Source: a virus. Taken from it: DNA of 57,916 nt. The stretch lies in IMG/VR virus record IMGVR_UViG_3300031027_000019, positions 1-57,916 of that record, one strand, 5' to 3'. The translations under genes were made by a program, and so were the position numbers. Numbering within the stretch: position 1 is the stretch's first letter; each line of letters starts with the position of its first letter. The notes below the pieces were generated by a model. It worked only from the letters and a program-made list of their open reading frames with translations, made no database searches and was not told the DNA's origin. Shown here one piece after another: positions 5,192-57,916 of the stretch.

Positions 5192-6019
5192 ATGGCAAAT
5201 CTATTAAAAGTTCGTGAGTATGTTACATCTGTTCTGAATAGAGAGGGCGCTAAGACCCTCAATGAACATGTTGCTGACTATTCATTGTCTGCTCTTTCTG
5301 AGAGTGTTGATTCTATTGTCGAAGGTAGAAAGGACTATACCGCTCATGCAGTCGATACATGGATGAAGCGTAAAGAATCCGGCTATCAGAAGAGAAAGAA
5401 TGCCGAGAAGGATAAGAAGAAAATTGATGAAGCTAAGTCTGGTAATATTTTTGACAAACACCTTCTTAAAATTGCAAAAGACACACTGAAAATGTCTGAT
5501 GTTGGTGCAAGAATTATGGGTGGTATGACTAAAGAAGAAGCTAGAAAGCATATTCATCGTATTACTGGAAAGTATCCAAAAGAAACAAACGAATCCATCA
5601 ATGAAGGCGAAGTCAAGACTGTCTATAACAAACTTCTAGGTGGTTGGTATAACGTTCGTGGAAAGCATCAGACACCACTAGGTGGTCGATTCGATTCAAA
5701 GGAAGCAGCTGTCAAACATTTGAATCGCAATAAGAAGCCTGCGAATGAATCTGTTGTGAATGAAGAATTTGAAGGACACATTCATGCTCTTCATAAATTC
5801 TTGGATATGACAGGTGGACAAACAATCCATACAGATAAATTTCCATCTTTAGGAAATAAAAAATATGCAATGGCTCGTCACCACGCAAGAATGGCAATAT
5901 CGAATTTTAAAAGTTCTGAAGGAGCATCACCAGAATATAAAGAAAATTATCTAAAAAATGCAAATAAACACCTAGCAAAGGTTGAATACCATATCAATCG
6001 CATTCACGGAAAGAGATAG
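5192..6019 (+). CDS. Prohead core / internal head protein with repeated protease-like sites
   Basis: A 275-residue basic, helical protein encoded between portal and prohead protease. Four candidate prohead-protease sites with small/aliphatic-x-Glu ends are visible: KTLNE (near residue 25), SINE (near 136), and VVNE (near 190), plus EEFE. T4 gp21 cleaves after (L/I/A)xE. This suggests that it is packaged as a core protein and processed, like T4 gp67/gp68 or internal proteins. Its C-terminal His-rich helices (ARHHARMAISNFKSS) resemble the small proteins encoded at 55-57 kb. Function is inferred from position and sites. Confidence 0.7.
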   Translation: MANLLKVREYVTSVLNREGAKTLNEHVADYSLSALSESVDSIVEGRKDYTAHAVDTWMKRKESGYQKRKNAEKDKKKIDEAKSGNIFDKHLLKIAKDTLKMSDVGARIMGGMTKEEARKHIHRITGKYPKETNESINEGEVKTVYNKLLGGWYNVRGKHQTPLGGRFDSKEAAVKHLNRNKKPANESVVNEEFEGHIHALHKFLDMTGGQTIHTDKFPSLGNKKYAMARHHARMAISNFKSSEGASPEYKENYLKNANKHLAKVEYHINRIHGKR

Positions 6020-36876: not shown

Positions 36877-38274
36877 TTAGATTTGTGAAGCAACAAGAGA
36901 GCGAATCTGCATCAGACTTTGATCAACCAACAGGCGACCATTTTCAAACACAGTCTGCATCATGTAATCACCGCCTTCCAGAGGCTTAGATAGATCGTGA
37001 ACAACCAGCTTACCATCAGTGGTCCACATCCTCACAGTCTCGATTCTACCGCGCTTGGAACGCTTTCCTAAATCAGTGATAGGGTCTTTATAGACATCAA
37101 CCCATTCACCATTGATCTTGGCTGCAGAACATTTCATGGCAAACTTCATGGTGTCACGATTGAGCTTCTGAAGCATTCCACCACCAGAACCAAATGCAAT
37201 GTTATCAGCACTAAACCCCCAATCACTCAACTCCCAAAGAATCTCATCAACGATGGTATGACCATCAATTCCATCACCCTGAATCAGACGAACGTTGTTG
37301 AAGACTTTGTAGCCTTTGGCATTGATAGTAGAGCCAAACTTTTCATCAATAATATTTGCGAGCTTCAAAATTGTGGGGACAATCTCACCAGAATCTGGAC
37401 GAATGACAAGCGTTCCACCAGCTGCAATCACTTCATCCTTGAGAACACCACCCCACCCGTTTCTGGTTGCATTGAAAACATCGAACGAATCAGAGACACA
37501 AGCATAAATTTTCCCGTCTCCGCCAAACAATTTGATCATATTTCGATAGGCATCAAACTCTCGTTCCTTCCCCCATGACGTGATGGTGCTATGTTCGGAA
37601 GCTGGAATACTGAAACCAGCCATTTCTTCACCATAATATTTGTAGGCACCAAGAAGAGCAGACATTGTGTCAGTTCCCTTAAATCCGGTTGCCAAATGAG
37701 CAAGTCCACCGACTTCAGCACTTTCTTCAGAAGAAACACCTCTTGCACCAAAATCATGCAATTTAAAGTCAAGACCAGAAACATCACCAGTCTGTTCAAG
37801 ATAACGTTTGATAACCTTTCGGATTTCCATGGACTTTGTTGCGACGGTTGTTGGATACCAAACACCACGAAGAATCGCAGTCTCGGCAAATGATGTCAGC
37901 CAATAACACTTTGGGTCAGTGTTGACAATAGTAACCAAAGGAAGTCCAACAGGAAGAACAGACCCTTCTGGAACCGCCTTGATGAGAAGAGGAAGCTTAC
38001 CACCATGTTCCTTGAGGATGTACATCCATCCATCACCATTGAATGGTACACCATGGGCCTTGCACACAATCTGCGCTTCCACAATGTCTGAAATTGTGAT
38101 CGGCTTGGTCAGATACTTCTTGATGAACATTTGAAGACCAAAGAACAGAGAATGAGGATATTCTCCACCACGAGATTCGATATAGCTATAGACATACTCA
38201 GTTCCGGGTGGGTACTGAAGCCACTGGCTGTGTTTGTAACTATCTGTATTCAGTAAGAAATTTGTCTGTGTCAT
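36877..38274 (-). CDS. nadV: Nicotinamide phosphoribosyltransferase (NAMPT)
   Basis: A 465-residue enzyme making NMN from nicotinamide and PRPP. The NAMPT order is clear: NTDSYKHSQWLQYPPGTEYVYSY-type start, DFGARGVSSEESAEVGGLAH near residue 170, ASEHSTITSWG near 227, VSDSFDVFNA, LVIRPDSGEIVPTILK near 290 and FGSGGGMLQKLNRDT near 365. With nadM it forms the NAD salvage pair that phages use to rebuild NAD destroyed by host defence (NARP2). Its leader carries the shared hairpin and ribosome-binding element. Confidence 0.95.
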   Translation of the reverse strand: MTQTNFLLNTDSYKHSQWLQYPPGTEYVYSYIESRGGEYPHSLFFGLQMFIKKYLTKPITISDIVEAQIVCKAHGVPFNGDGWMYILKEHGGKLPLLIKAVPEGSVLPVGLPLVTIVNTDPKCYWLTSFAETAILRGVWYPTTVATKSMEIRKVIKRYLEQTGDVSGLDFKLHDFGARGVSSEESAEVGGLAHLATGFKGTDTMSALLGAYKYYGEEMAGFSIPASEHSTITSWGKEREFDAYRNMIKLFGGDGKIYACVSDSFDVFNATRNGWGGVLKDEVIAAGGTLVIRPDSGEIVPTILKLANIIDEKFGSTINAKGYKVFNNVRLIQGDGIDGHTIVDEILWELSDWGFSADNIAFGSGGGMLQKLNRDTMKFAMKCSAAKINGEWVDVYKDPITDLGKRSKRGRIETVRMWTTDGKLVVHDLSKPLEGGDYMMQTVFENGRLLVDQSLMQIRSLVASQI

Positions 38275-38319
38275 GAGTCTATCTCCATTTTAAAATTAAA
38301 AGTGCAGTCTATCCGCACT
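38275..38319 (-). promoter_or_regulatory. nadV leader element: hairpin with GGATAGACT loop plus RBS
   Basis: In the minus-strand RNA a 5-bp stem AGTGC/GCACT (38301-38319) presents the 9-nt loop GGATAGACT. It is followed by an AU-rich spacer and GGAGATAGACTC (38275-38286) directly before the ATG. The nadM leader has the same loop on a different stem and nearly the same ribosome-binding 12-mer. Translational operator or ligand-sensing RNA. Confidence 0.7.
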
Positions 38320-38337
38320 GTAAGTTTACATCAAAGG

Positions 38338-38682
38338 TTAGTTATATGTCAAATGTGGGTCAGCTACTCTATCGCCATCAACATAAAAGTTTTCATTCAT
38401 TTCATGCAGAACTGCATCCTTGATAGCTTTGTAAGCAAGCCTTAAAATTTCGTATGTGCCTTTATCGGTATCAATTAGATGCCATCTGCAACGTTGTTCT
38501 TCCAATATTCCAGTGTTTGCGTCAGGCGCTTTAAAAACTACCTGAAGAAAATACATATACCTCTTTTCGAGTGTTTTATCCTGCCATGAACGAGGTTCAA
38601 GTTTTTCATGGTGAACACGGAATTCCCAGTCAAGATATTTGACTCTTTTGAGAATGGCTTCGATTTGTGGTTTGGATAACAT
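38338..38682 (-). CDS. Uncharacterised protein between nadM and nadV, 114 aa
   Basis: Alpha/beta protein with a helical N-terminus (IEAILKRVKYLDWEF) and YMYFLQVVFKAPD near the middle. It starts 4 nt after the nadM stop. Similar short proteins occur in T4-like phages without a function. Its place inside the NAD locus is the only hint. Confidence 0.65.
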   Translation of the reverse strand: MLSKPQIEAILKRVKYLDWEFRVHHEKLEPRSWQDKTLEKRYMYFLQVVFKAPDANTGILEEQRCRWHLIDTDKGTYEILRLAYKAIKDAVLHEMNENFYVDGDRVADPHLTYN

Positions 38683-38685
38683 GGC

Positions 38686-39759
38686 TTAAAATCCGTAACG
38701 TTCGGCAATAGGAACCCAATAGTTCAAAATTGAAAAATGATCCTCAAATAGTTTGTCACTCATTGTATGTAATTTACTGATTGGAATCCATTTTGCTTTT
38801 TCAGCATCATCAGACCCACGAACCTTTGGAAGTTCGTGTTCATCATCCAGAATGATCAATCCAGTTGTGGTAATCGTTCGACCACGAAGAGACCTATTTG
38901 GATGATCAAATGTCTTGGTTTCCCTAATCACTAGCTTATCTTCTCGGACCTTGATTCTGGTCTCTTCCAGAAGCTCTCTAAGGATGCCATTGTTGATTCG
39001 CTCATCAACGTTCAGGAAACCTCCCGGAAGGGCTAGAAGTCCCTTTCCGGGACTCGCACGACGCTTTACGACAAGGAAATGAGACTTACAGAACACAACA
39101 GCATCCACAGTCTGGAAAATTGGTGGATAAGGAAGCCCGATATAAGGCTTTTTGTAGTTTACGTTCTGCTCATATTCCTCACGCAGTGCAACATACTCAT
39201 CCGTCTTGACAAACTTCATCAAGAAGTTAAATACATGCTTCGGAACATTCCATGCGTAATATTCATCATCTTTTAGGGTGAACAACTGTTCACGAATTGT
39301 TGTGGCATCCAAAGGATGTTCAGAATTGGCTTCGACATAGTCATACTGTGGAAATTTATCCAAATACCAGCTGGAAGCATCCTTGTGATACCCGACGATC
39401 ACAACGTCTTTGGTAAAAGTTCTGACATGCAAAGGGTGTGGGTCGTTTTCATCAATATCAGAAATTGCTTCATCAACATTATAGGAAACCTCAGAAATCC
39501 ACTGAGAGTCGTTATACATGTAGTCAGTCACACCATAGGTATAGACATTTTCGAACATGTTCTTGACAGTTTCATAGAGCATGGCTTCACGCTCTTCAAA
39601 TGTGAATGGGTTCTTGATGTTTCGAGCAATGTAAGAAGAACCAACAATGATGACGATGTTGTCAGCAAGTTCGGCTGCTTTTCTGAAGAGTGAGAGGTGC
39701 CCCTGATGGTGGGGCTGGAATCTCCCGATTACAACGGCTGTCTTATATTGTTTTTGCAT
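38686..39759 (-). CDS. nadM: Bifunctional NMN adenylyltransferase / Nudix hydrolase
   Basis: A 357-residue fusion. The N-terminal adenylyltransferase has VVIGRFQPHHQGHL (HxGH-type site) and DATTIREQLF near 150; it joins NMN and ATP to NAD. The C-terminal Nudix box reads GGFLNVDERINNGILRELLE followed by ET, fitting GX5EX7REUXEEXGU; it may remove ADP-ribose or oxidised nucleotides. With NadV it forms a two-step NAD salvage route. Its leader has the shared hairpin. Confidence 0.95.
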   Translation of the reverse strand: MQKQYKTAVVIGRFQPHHQGHLSLFRKAAELADNIVIIVGSSYIARNIKNPFTFEEREAMLYETVKNMFENVYTYGVTDYMYNDSQWISEVSYNVDEAISDIDENDPHPLHVRTFTKDVVIVGYHKDASSWYLDKFPQYDYVEANSEHPLDATTIREQLFTLKDDEYYAWNVPKHVFNFLMKFVKTDEYVALREEYEQNVNYKKPYIGLPYPPIFQTVDAVVFCKSHFLVVKRRASPGKGLLALPGGFLNVDERINNGILRELLEETRIKVREDKLVIRETKTFDHPNRSLRGRTITTTGLIILDDEHELPKVRGSDDAEKAKWIPISKLHTMSDKLFEDHFSILNYWVPIAERYGF

Positions 39760-44817: not shown

Positions 44818-45493
44818 TTACAAAATTCCTTTCAAAACTTTGCTCAACTTCAATTTATTTCCAGTCAGATGATCAATGACCATGTCGTGTTTGACAGAAT
44901 AGGTTTTGACCTTATCACCACGTTGACCAGAACCAATATTTTGTTTTCTGTCATTATTTGCTGCGCAGTGAATTTCAGATTCATGCTTGGACTTCAATCG
45001 AGCTTCCAGAATTTCAAAGGCTAGGCGTCTATTTTGAGGCTGAGAACGTTCTGTCCTGATAGAGACTGTGATTCCGGTCGGAACATGTCGAATATGACAG
45101 GCACTCAAAGTTTTGTTCTGATGTTGACCACCATTACCACCGGCTGTTGTATACCTGATTTCTAGGTCTTTCTCGGAAAATTTATATCCCTTGGTTTCCA
45201 TTTCCAAGGGATATACATAGACTGTTACTGTAGAGGTCTGCACACGCCCATTACGCTCTGTAGGGGGTATTCGTTGCCATCTGTGCCCACCTGACTCATT
45301 CATGAGTCTAGACAGCTTCCTAGAGTCTCCTGATAGTGTTAGTGAAGCAAAGCCTGATGATTCTTCTAGAATCTCAGGGTCAAAGACTCTCCTGCTTGGC
45401 ATAATTCAGGTAAATCTTGGCCTGATCTTTAACCAATAACTTGGCATCATCTCCGCCCTCGGCTGCTCTGACTTCAATTAAAATTTTGTTCAT
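44818..45493 (-). CDS. Peptide chain release factor with programmed +1 frameshift
   Basis: The first frame starts at ATG 45493 (overlapping the upstream stop) and encodes 37 residues, MNKILIEVRAAEGGDDAKLL and on, like the start of the RF domain 2. It meets TGA at 45380-45382. The +1 frame continues with the rest of a release factor: NESGGHRWQRIPPTERNGRV (codon-recognition region, PPT in place of PxT/SPF), GGNGGQHQNKT (GGQ catalytic loop), HVPTGI and SGQRGDKVKTYSV. Fused length is about 224 residues; domain 1 of cellular RF1/RF2 is absent. It would hydrolyse peptidyl-tRNA at stop codons, or rescue ribosomes. Confidence 0.88.
45379..45394 (-). promoter_or_regulatory. prfB-type +1 frameshift signal
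   Basis: The minus strand reads CAGGAGAGTCTTTGAC. AGGAG lies 3 nt before CTT, followed by TGA and C, the same layout as the bacterial RF2 frameshift site (AGGGGG, 3 nt, CTT TGA C). A second start for the downstream frame (ATG 45402) has no ribosome-binding site, which favours frameshifting. Confidence 0.85.
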
Positions 45494-45657
45494 GATTTTC
45501 TACTCGGTTTGTGTGTTATACCTTGTTGATCTTTACTTGGGCGTTTTCGAATAGTTTGTGGATGAGTTACTTTACCTACCCACAATTCTGGAATTTCTAT
45601 AAGAATGCCTCTGCGCATTCTATAGAACTTACCATCCATTTCTATTCTCTTTGCCAT
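45490..45657 (-). CDS. Small basic protein upstream of release factor, 55 aa
   Basis: Short gene from ATG 45657 to a TGA that overlaps the release-factor start (ATGA). The product is basic (FYRMRRGILIEIPELW, QTIRKRPSKDQQ). Translation is probably coupled to the release factor. Unknown function. Confidence 0.6.
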   Translation of the reverse strand: MAKRIEMDGKFYRMRRGILIEIPELWVGKVTHPQTIRKRPSKDQQGITHKPSRKS

Positions 45658-54997: not shown

Positions 54998-55333
54998 TCA
55001 AGCTTTAAATCCTTGAAATGATGTCTTCCCAATCAATGATTTGTGCCATGCCTGACGAGCATGATGTTGGTCGGCTAGACGTTTGTTGCCAACTTCATCG
55101 TGCATATGAGATTTTGTATGATACATTCTCATGTGATAATGGTGCTTTGCCAATTCTTCATGTTGAAGATCATGGTGTGTCTGTTTTTCATGTGGCATTG
55201 TAGTTTCATCATGAAGCATTCTATAAGATCGAGCATTTTTAAAATGATCCAAGGCTTTTTCCAGATGCTTCATATGTTCTGGAAGTGGATCATAGGCTTC
55301 ATTTTCATTTAAAAATTGACGTAAAGTTTTCAT
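54998..55333 (-). CDS. Small His-rich internal head protein candidate, 111 aa
   Basis: Begins MKTLRQFLNE, a capsid-targeting sequence like that of T4 internal proteins (MKTYQEFIAE), with LNE as likely cleavage end. The rest is helical and very rich in His (HHDLQHEELAKHHYHMRMYH). Overlaps the GP88 gene by 4 nt. Probably packaged in the head and possibly injected. Confidence 0.75.
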   Translation of the reverse strand: MKTLRQFLNENEAYDPLPEHMKHLEKALDHFKNARSYRMLHDETTMPHEKQTHHDLQHEELAKHHYHMRMYHTKSHMHDEVGNKRLADQHHARQAWHKSLIGKTSFQGFKA

Positions 55334-56622
55334 CTTGATCCAGTTCCATGTTGAGCAACAAAGTCATGTAGCTTGATAGGTTTGTGAACACCTACAGAAG
55401 GCGCTATAGAAGCAGCTGTGTGGTTCATAGCCGCTGGATGTGGCTCACTCTTAGGTGAGGCACCTTTACGAGCAATAGCGACGTGTCCACCAGCTTCTGG
55501 ACGAACTGCAAAGTTTCCTGCACGCTCTAGATTTGGTCCACCACCCTTCAATCGAAGACCAGCAATGACGCCCTCATGATGAGGAACTTCATTATAAGCC
55601 TTATCTAGATGTCTGTGATCATGTGGATCACCGTCAATGACTCTATATTTCTTTCCAGTCTCTTCATCATGAACATGACTTGGGAGTGCTGAATCGGCTG
55701 CGCCTCTTCGTCCCTGTTTGACAGCAAAGACCATGGATGCAACACCACCTTTATCCAGATGCTGTCTAACCTGATGCCAGTTGGACGTAGGGTGGTTTAA
55801 TCCAGTAGAAGAAACAGTCAGATGATAATTTGAAGGGAGACTTTTGTTTTTGGTTCGACCAGACAATTTTGTATAATCATAGAACTGAACGTCATGGTGC
55901 TTCTTGAAAAGTTCTGGTGCAAGATGTTCATGTGGAATATCAGAAGCAACATTCAATCTGACAGCAAGTTTCTTTCCTTCCTTGTGAGCCGCAGTTTTTG
56001 CACCAGTGATTTCCTTATCTAGTCCAGCATAGAAGTGGGCAGGATGATTCATGGCAAAATGAGTTTTTGCAATACGAGCATTTCTGGTTCCAGACATGAC
56101 AGCACGACCAGCCGATTTTCCGAGACAAGAAGCTTTACATTCTGGTGTTGCAGCAGGACAAGTATCAATTCCAGACATGGTAGATGGTGCTAGAGAAACA
56201 CCGAGTGTCTTATAGATTGGAATTTTCTTGGCATATTTTCCAAATTTTGGATTGGACTTTTCATTACCCATAAACTTACCAGACTTAGCGAGTTTAGGAT
56301 TGGATGCTTCTGGACCTGTGATTTTGGCACGCATCTTTCCAGCTTCTTTCTGCATGTGTCCCTGAAGTTCTGTAGAGGATGAAAAATACTTCTGGGCACC
56401 AGCACGCATTTCCCTCCAGTTTGGATTGGTATGAGCTTCAGTCTGTGCAACGTCTTCATTCATCATAGCGAATCTATCACCAAAATTCATTTCTTCAAAT
56501 ATAACTTCATCGTCCTCAAGGATCAAATCTTCTTCTGAAATATGTGAGAAATCTTCCAGAAGAAAATAGGTCTCTTCTAGAGGTTCGTGCTGTTCATTGA
56601 GAAATTGTCCGATTGTCTTCAT
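55330..56622 (-). CDS. GP88-domain protein with capsid-targeting N-terminus, 430 aa
   Basis: The N-terminus MKTIGQFLNE is a capsid-targeting sequence with an LNE cleavage end. After an acidic linker of about 80 residues comes a GP88-like domain: IPIYKTLGVSLAPSTMSG, the Cys cluster CPAATPECKASCLGKSAGR near residue 155, ARIAKTHFAM and AVRLNVASDIPHE. GP88 proteins are known from phages with no proven activity; the Cys motif suggests a metal or Fe-S site. Packaging in the head is inferred from the N-terminus. Confidence 0.82.
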   Translation of the reverse strand: MKTIGQFLNEQHEPLEETYFLLEDFSHISEEDLILEDDEVIFEEMNFGDRFAMMNEDVAQTEAHTNPNWREMRAGAQKYFSSSTELQGHMQKEAGKMRAKITGPEASNPKLAKSGKFMGNEKSNPKFGKYAKKIPIYKTLGVSLAPSTMSGIDTCPAATPECKASCLGKSAGRAVMSGTRNARIAKTHFAMNHPAHFYAGLDKEITGAKTAAHKEGKKLAVRLNVASDIPHEHLAPELFKKHHDVQFYDYTKLSGRTKNKSLPSNYHLTVSSTGLNHPTSNWHQVRQHLDKGGVASMVFAVKQGRRGAADSALPSHVHDEETGKKYRVIDGDPHDHRHLDKAYNEVPHHEGVIAGLRLKGGGPNLERAGNFAVRPEAGGHVAIARKGASPKSEPHPAAMNHTAASIAPSVGVHKPIKLHDFVAQHGTGSR

Positions 56623-56955
56623 TTAAAATTGTCCAGTATGTATAGCAGTAGAGTGTCCCAACGCAGAATCCAGATACTTTCGACTGATGGTTCTGGATTC
56701 CAAACCTTGATGGAGTGGTGAATGCTTCATATGTAGATACATATGAGCATAATGTTCTCGCATATTTCGGTGATATGCTTCTGGATTTCCAGCATTCTTG
56801 GCTTGGGCTGCAGCAGAATGAAATTTCACAGCATGATAGAGATGATCAATTGCAGTATCATTGTCAATCTTTGGTGATGATCTATCACGAGGATGAAGCT
56901 GAGCTAACTCAACATCCTCTGTGATAGATTGGAGAAATTGGGAAAGTGTTTTCAT
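56623..56955 (-). CDS. Small His-rich internal head protein candidate, 110 aa
   Basis: MKTLSQFLQSITE start (targeting sequence with ITE end). The C-terminal part AIDHLYHAVKFHSAAAQAKN and AYHRNMREHYAHMYLHM aligns with the next gene, so the two are paralogues. Ends 1 nt before the GP88 start. Confidence 0.75.
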   Translation of the reverse strand: MKTLSQFLQSITEDVELAQLHPRDRSSPKIDNDTAIDHLYHAVKFHSAAAQAKNAGNPEAYHRNMREHYAHMYLHMKHSPLHQGLESRTISRKYLDSALGHSTAIHTGQF

Positions 56956-56960
56956 GTTTA

Positions 56961-57467
56961 TTATGCTGTCCCAATTTTATCTGAATGATCGACTGCAGCA
57001 TCCAAATGAGCCATCTTTTCTTCATAGTTACGACGCCCACTCAAAACTTCATTATTATCCAAATGGTGGTACATATTAGTATGAAAATCTCTCATACCAC
57101 GATGATAATTTTTAGTGTCATTTTCCGATTTTGCTTTCACTGCTGCTCTATGAGAGTCAACGGCTTGATATAAACGGCGTATAGCATGATCGTGGATGAG
57201 TTCTCTATTTTTATCATGAGACTCACTTTCACCCAATCTTCCAAACTGGTTTCGAGCAGAATCAACATCTCTTTCCAGACGCTTTTCGTAGTCATTCACT
57301 TCATTACTTTTGACACCCGGAAGACGACCAACACCATTGAATTTATTATAGCGAGTGAATCTCCCTTTAGAAGGCTTATTTCTGAACGGAGAAGCACCTT
57401 CTGCAGCTGGTGATAGTGTTCCGTTATCCTCTGAGATTGTCTGTACAAATTGCTCTAAAGTCTTCAT
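56961..57467 (-). CDS. Small internal head protein candidate, 168 aa
   Basis: MKTLEQFVQTISE start (targeting sequence with ISE end). The C-terminal part AIRRLYQAVDSHRAAVKAKS and YHRGMRDFHTNMYHHLD is paralogous to the previous gene. The ATG at 57467 with AGGA upstream is preferred to a TTG at 57503. A late-type promoter lies 26 nt upstream. Confidence 0.75.
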   Translation of the reverse strand: MKTLEQFVQTISEDNGTLSPAAEGASPFRNKPSKGRFTRYNKFNGVGRLPGVKSNEVNDYEKRLERDVDSARNQFGRLGESESHDKNRELIHDHAIRRLYQAVDSHRAAVKAKSENDTKNYHRGMRDFHTNMYHHLDNNEVLSGRRNYEEKMAHLDAAVDHSDKIGTA

Positions 57468-57492
57468 TTTGTTGTGGTCCTGTATTGATTTT

Positions 57493-57502
57493 GTATTTAT
57501 CA
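57493..57502 (-). promoter_or_regulatory. Putative late promoter (TGATAAATAC) for internal protein cluster
   Basis: Matches the tube-gene motif at nine of ten positions; it would make the four capsid-targeted genes a late operon, which fits a virion role. Confidence 0.55.
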
Positions 57503-57916
57503 ATTTCCATGATTGCCATGAATAGCAACACCATGACCGGCTGGAATGACATCAGTTCTCTTCGGAAGGATCAAACTTTTGTGCATCTTCTTCAAATCAC
57601 TAAAATCATGTTCATCATAGTAAGGTTCCAAATCCAGTTGTTTTGGTGCATCACCAGCAGGATCACTTCCAATGTGTTTGATCCAGACATTCATAAATCG
57701 ATTATAGTCATTCCAGTCCACTCTCTCAGAGATGACATAGTCTCTCTCAATTCTCAAGGCAATCTGATGCCCAAATTGGTAAGGGAGTCGATAGGTAGAC
57801 AATAGAAGTTTTTCGATTACTTCGTGACAAATCAGGAATCTGTCTGTAAGAATGATTCGACCATTCTTCTTGTATCCACGAGGCATCCTTCTATCGATGA
57901 AAAATACTTTTCCATT
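57500..57916 (-). CDS. Uncharacterised protein, N-terminus beyond window
   Basis: The frame stays open to the right edge, so the gene is probably truncated here; an internal ATG at 57886 would give 128 residues. Visible are a FFIDRRMPRGYKKNGRIIL segment, ICHEVIEKLLL, HQIALRIERDYV and a His-rich end. Similar phage proteins have no assigned role. Confidence 0.65.
   Translation of the reverse strand, partial: NGKVFFIDRRMPRGYKKNGRIILTDRFLICHEVIEKLLLSTYRLPYQFGHQIALRIERDYVISERVDWNDYNRFMNVWIKHIGSDPAGDAPKQLDLEPYYDEHDFSDLKKMHKSLILPKRTDVIPAGHGVAIHGNHGN

Follow-up and report, generated by a model that had tools for sequence, protein, structure and literature searches.

Closest described systems

Autoregulatory frameshifting of release factors has been thought to be confined to RF2, with no RF1 counterpart known (PMC5009743, PMC12421855). 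In bacterial prfB, the gene of RF2, the site lies at about codon 26 and combines Shine-Dalgarno (SD)-like purines, a 3-nt spacer and CTT-TGA-C, of which TGA-C is a weak termination context (PMC12421855), and the release factor is obtained by a +1 shift. A survey of 12,753 genomes observed prfB frameshifting only with stops readable by RF2, never with UAG, and none in prfA (PMC12421855); neither an in-frame-UGA RF2 gene nor a UAG/RF1 counterpart was known (PMC5009743). PrfH (RFH), a horizontally mobile factor lacking domain 1, has been treated in a paper from which the short factors described here are absent (PMC6514570). In openly accessible journal papers, we found no report of this short-factor family, of RF1-type frameshifting with UAG sensors, or of readthrough swaps. 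Frameshifting of prfB is known already, and the same event in an RF1-type factor, the UAG sensors and the readthrough swaps are apparently new.

Organization of the window gene

In this study, a stretch of viral DNA of 57,916 nucleotides (the window) was investigated, the minus strand of which carries at 45493-44818 the gene of an RF1-type release factor without domain 1, interrupted by an in-frame TGA. Its features are as follows.

44818-45493, minus strand: short RF1-type release factor gene with predicted +1 frameshift, 224 aa (profiles; AlphaFold2; Foldseek to RF1)
45380-45493, minus strand: frame-0 segment, 37 codons and the in-frame TGA (ORF translation)
44818-45381, minus strand: +1-frame segment with the remaining domain 2, PPT motif, GGQ domain and TAA
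45389-45393, minus strand: SD-like AGGAG, 3 nt 5' of the slip codon (sequence and family consensus)
45386-45388, minus strand: spacer AGT
45383-45385, minus strand: slip codon CTT, Leu37 (sequence and relatives)
45380-45382, minus strand: in-frame stop TGA
45379, minus strand: C 3' of TGA, weak-termination context; GAC gives Asp38 in the +1 frame
45259-45267, minus strand: PPT tripeptide, RF1-like PxT codon-recognition motif, residues 76-78
45124-45132, minus strand: GGQ catalytic motif, residues 121-123
45490-45657, minus strand: 55-aa ORF 5' of the release factor, its TGA overlapping the release-factor ATG (ATGA)

The minus-strand sequence from 45493 reads ATG AAC AAA ... AAG CAG GAG AGT CTT TGA CCC, and frame 0 thus runs from the ATG through 37 codons to the TGA; when CTTT is taken as a single Leu step, the 224-aa product is obtained, ending at the TAA at 44818. 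The split frame reported by the sequence-only reading was recovered at the same coordinates, and the fused product matched both PCRF and RF-1 of Pfam. That reading had also held that the junction carries every element of the bacterial RF2 site, and indeed AGGAG, AGT, CTT, TGA and C, the full prfB +1 cassette, are all present; RGGRGNNNCTTTGAC occurs once in the window against 0.03 copies expected by chance. The SD (AGGAG) is retained here though the residues it encodes are Gln-Glu, not Arg-Arg. An in-frame TAG 9 nt 5' of the ATG means that the window factor has no domain 1, and since the frame-0 segment lacks both PxT and GGQ, it is predicted to be inactive by itself. The ATGA overlap may couple translation of the release factor to that of the 55-aa ORF.

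The NCBIfam profiles ranked RF1 (PRK00591, 1e-59) above prfB (2e-36) and PrfH (6e-23), all under the equivalog cut-offs because the protein is short (RF1: 202 bits against 400). AlphaFold2 folded the fused product as RF1 domains 2-4 with a pLDDT of 89, and Foldseek matched it to ribosome-bound RF1, with a TMq of 0.92 to E. coli RF1, the PxT and GGQ motifs being placed within the RF1 fold. The shift junction falls in the turn that connects helix 15-34 to strand 38-45, with a pLDDT of about 97. The RF2 motif SPF is not in the window product, which carries PPT instead, in agreement with the RF1-like assignment made earlier. Compared with canonical RF1 (prfA), with which it shares domains 2-4, PxT and GGQ, the factor lacks domain 1, is only 224 aa long, belongs to a separate clade and has an interrupted frame. 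It resembles PrfH in the missing domain 1 and in horizontal mobility, but reached only 81.5 bits with TIGR03072, about half the cut-off of 166.65; the short factors also differ from PrfH in having an RF1-type PxT loop and no RtcB operon. No RtcB gene was detected in the window; among the relatives it was present, away from the short-factor gene, in 6 of 20 records. A role in PrfH/RtcB RNA repair was considered and rejected, as the PrfH score is below the cut-off and RtcB is not beside the gene.

Taken jointly, we give a probability of roughly 0.7 to the reading that this gene encodes a short class I release factor of the RF1 type, comprising domains 2-4, and that programmed +1 frameshifting acts as a gate through which it is made when termination capacity falls.

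Distribution and diversity of the relatives

The pattern used to scan IMG/VR prescribed the distance between two conserved protein motifs and nothing about the site itself. The +1 offset was found in 64 contigs against another wrong offset in one; the latter, L254, harbors a CTT-TAG site as in L242 at the usual codon and may be a family member carrying an extra indel. Among the 61 distinct viral +1 genes, 60 have CTT immediately 5' of the stop, and 59 of these 60 have it 25 codons after GG, the remaining one (L202) at 35. The internal stops of the 61 genes were TGA (43), TAG (16) and TAA (2). The sole +1-offset relative lacking CTT, L251 (minus strand, 5742-5905), which is counted among the TGA genes and belongs to the readthrough clade, has AAC-TGA, which may be an error or a different mechanism.

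The same pattern disclosed 28 loci in GTDB genomes, every one with CTT before the stop, mostly in Myxococcota, including the complete Minicystis rosea chromosome and five Nannocystis, and also in Achromobacter anxifer and Novimethylophilus. The complete bacterial genomes with a short factor contain prfA, prfB and ArfB-like genes, the short factor being a third release-factor-like gene, and canonical prfA and prfB are retained in these hosts; the phages tested have one release factor gene apiece. One pattern hit, L289, had no release-factor match and was set aside as chance. The same kind of site is found in L004 (48-50% identity) and in the 485-kb phage LR745208.1 (L005), and the cassette is kept over relatives at 38-50% identity, so that the search for it in related phages, as had been proposed, was positive. 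Dozens of relatives are built like the window gene, a prfB-type site in a new place within a domain-1-less RF1-type factor; the reading of a release factor probably made by frameshifting is supported, whereas its restriction to phages, or to one phage, is not. The family is large and apparently undescribed.

UAA is the stop read by both release factors, and UAG is specific to RF1. As an internal stop, UAA occurs in 2 of 89 genes against 29% of nearby terminators (p 7e-11, with relatedness ignored), a scarcity which suggests that the stop reports on a single factor. PPT predominates in all stop classes and does not track the internal stop; since the stop switches often between UGA and UAG while PPT stays, which factor is sensed does not follow from the predicted specificity of the product, a point against the sensing model. 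The proposal that the switch senses RF2 rather than autoregulates is consequently not a family-wide rule, as some relatives use UAG.

Selection at the site

The consensus over 99 frameshift genes was CGGAGG-NGT-CTT-T(GA/AG)-C, some of these genes coming from scans that demanded CTTTGA or CTTTAR, while the offset and CTT counts above are from site-blind scans only. Codon choice in the SD part is constrained at the nucleotide level: Arg is encoded by AGG in 54 of 56 cases against 210 of 2128 (10%) elsewhere in the same genes (p 2e-49), and by CGG in 73 of 81 against 357 of 2128 (17%; p 5e-45), the Fisher and binomial tests used for Arg codons and stops taking no account of relatedness among genes. 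An SD core of at least four bases was recognized in 87 of the 99 genes, and about 12% have no clear SD, which weighs against the proposed mechanism. CTT-stop genes without a recognisable SD are L105, L131, L141, L162, L164, L240, L278, L295 and L306.

In-frame UGA relatives and genetic code

Among 80 viral relatives sampled by similarity, 4 were frameshift genes, 73 had an in-frame TGA in this region after which the same frame goes on, and 3 were uninterrupted. The objection that relatives might encode the protein in one frame thus fails, since almost all are interrupted here, by the cassette or by in-frame UGA, with only a handful uninterrupted. In 46 of the in-frame-UGA relatives, the UGA aligns with the canonical RF1 Trp column, and readthrough of UGA is the predicted mode of expression. 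As no long open frames follow TGA-terminated genes, the sampled in-frame-UGA genomes use the standard code, with one ambiguous record (G024, L020) among those sampled. A recoded genome with TGA as Trp was ruled out for the window, the sampled frameshift phages, the in-frame-UGA phages and three phages of 635-735 kb, TGA not being sense in many genes. Selenocysteine was also rejected: the UGA class gave a downstream-structure signal (mean z -1.67) but no conserved fold (alifold 0.0). Two in-frame UGAs in one release-factor gene were noticed in L007, L009, L050 and L089, of which L007 and L009 come from huge phages, 635 and 735 kb long, that keep to the standard code in the regions sampled.

Isolates with in-frame UGA include Bosea sp. 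RAC05 and Variovorax sp. WDL1 (plasmid 2). In the latter (L375, 2971-3675), the gene is annotated as two RefSeq CDS split at the in-frame UGA and adjoins a SecB gene; short-factor genes are prone to such mis-annotation.

Phylogeny and origin of the site

When the site columns were left out of the tree, the short factors grouped in one clade separate from canonical RF1 and RF2 (support 100/99). This topology and the differing position of the site, in domain 2, fit the earlier suggestion of acquisition independent of bacterial prfB. UAG and UAA members are scattered over the tree, requiring about 22 changes over 24 rows, with many branches weakly supported. A second frameshift position, about 10 codons downstream, was found in L004, L202, Achromobacter and Novimethylophilus. 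The window branch joins the relatives that use readthrough or the second position (97/81), so that the window site may have arisen independently once more, though placement of the window in the main position-1 clade was not rejected by the AU test (p 0.08). We lean, somewhat less firmly than for the window gene itself, to the view that auxiliary RF1-type factors are widespread in phages and bacteria, gated in one region of domain 2, with repeated changes both in the recoding mechanism, +1 frameshifting or UGA readthrough, and in the sensor stop, UGA or UAG.

Alternative explanations

The two frames lie one base apart, as a sequencing error or a pseudogene would leave them. However, L002, an overlapping contig from an independent sample with 99.99% identity across 10.6 kb, carries the identical site, which answers the one-base-error objection (a third sample, L003, spans the 3' part of the gene, the site being outside it). 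The conservation of the cassette across diverged relatives and the intact fold also oppose an error, and the offset asymmetry together with the CTT-stop counts in viral and bacterial genes refute it, leaving this reading a negligible chance. Hardly more probable is separate initiation of the +1 ORF as a protein of its own, for which the ATG at 45402 opens a 194-aa ORF: no SD-like sequence is evident just 5' of this ATG, both halves are conserved as a single protein, and 35 of the 99 frameshift genes have no +1-frame start codon near the site, which excludes internal initiation there in these genes.

The main rival accepts the same frameshift but regards it as a fixed low-yield gate, which holds a factor that is toxic in excess scarce and senses nothing. 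In B. subtilis, overexpressed RF2 is toxic and overexpressed RF1 less so (PMC12421855), and the frequent swaps among UGA, UAG and in-frame UGA would suit any leaky stop; yet the near-absence of UAA suggests that a stop read by a single release factor matters, and in prfB the cassette has a known response to the RF2 level, so we regard the fixed gate as unlikely, though worth keeping in view. Slightly less credit is given to relaxed specificity, by which the factor would also act at UGA or on stalled ribosomes, making the UGA site a true negative feedback. The motif is PPT or PPN and not the canonical PAT/PVT, a few members (among them L005 and L153) have shortened loops, and domain 1 is absent as in PrfH; nevertheless, PxT, the conserved preceding Gln and the following Thr-Ser are all RF1-like, no family member has SPF, UAG members carry the same motif, and RtcB, present in 6 of 20 records, is not beside the gene.

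Proposed mechanism and implications

Under the preferred reading, a sensing gate by programmed +1 frameshifting, synthesis of the factor is probably tied to the efficiency of termination in the cell. As in prfB, the ribosome would pause at CTT-TGA-C, where AGGAG would pair with the 16S rRNA anti-SD and the peptidyl-tRNA-Leu would shift from CUU to UUU. Were RF2 to act first, an inactive 37-aa peptide would be released; were RF2 scarce or slow, translation would continue in the +1 frame to the full factor, which would thus be produced when termination capacity drops. With its predicted reading of UAA and UAG, the factor of UGA members would add UAA capacity during RF2 shortage. UAG relatives would respond to RF1 or to their own product, and in-frame-UGA relatives would keep the same gate by readthrough.

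If the wider reading of repeated recoding switches is true, the family would include the first RF1-specific autoregulatory loop and phage-borne sensors of termination stress. Phages, and bacteria that also bear prfA and prfB, have a third, domain-1-less release factor with the prfB-type cassette at a new position, built on UGA or UAG or exchanged for an in-frame UGA. The family makes testable which factor each stop senses, why phages carry release factors, and how easily one recoding mechanism replaces another.

Genome setting

The window is a fragment of a phage genome whose portal, protease, capsid, tail sheath and tail tube genes are T4-type, and a DNA search of annotated phages with it gave no match. 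At 36877-39759 (minus strand), a nicotinamide phosphoribosyltransferase gene (phrog_448) and an adjoining gene, probably for an NMN adenylyltransferase/Nudix protein, make up a phage NAD-salvage pair. At 54998-57503 (minus strand), four successive genes start with a common MKT(L/I)xQF(L/V) motif, which resembles the capsid-targeting sequence that internal head proteins of T4 bear.
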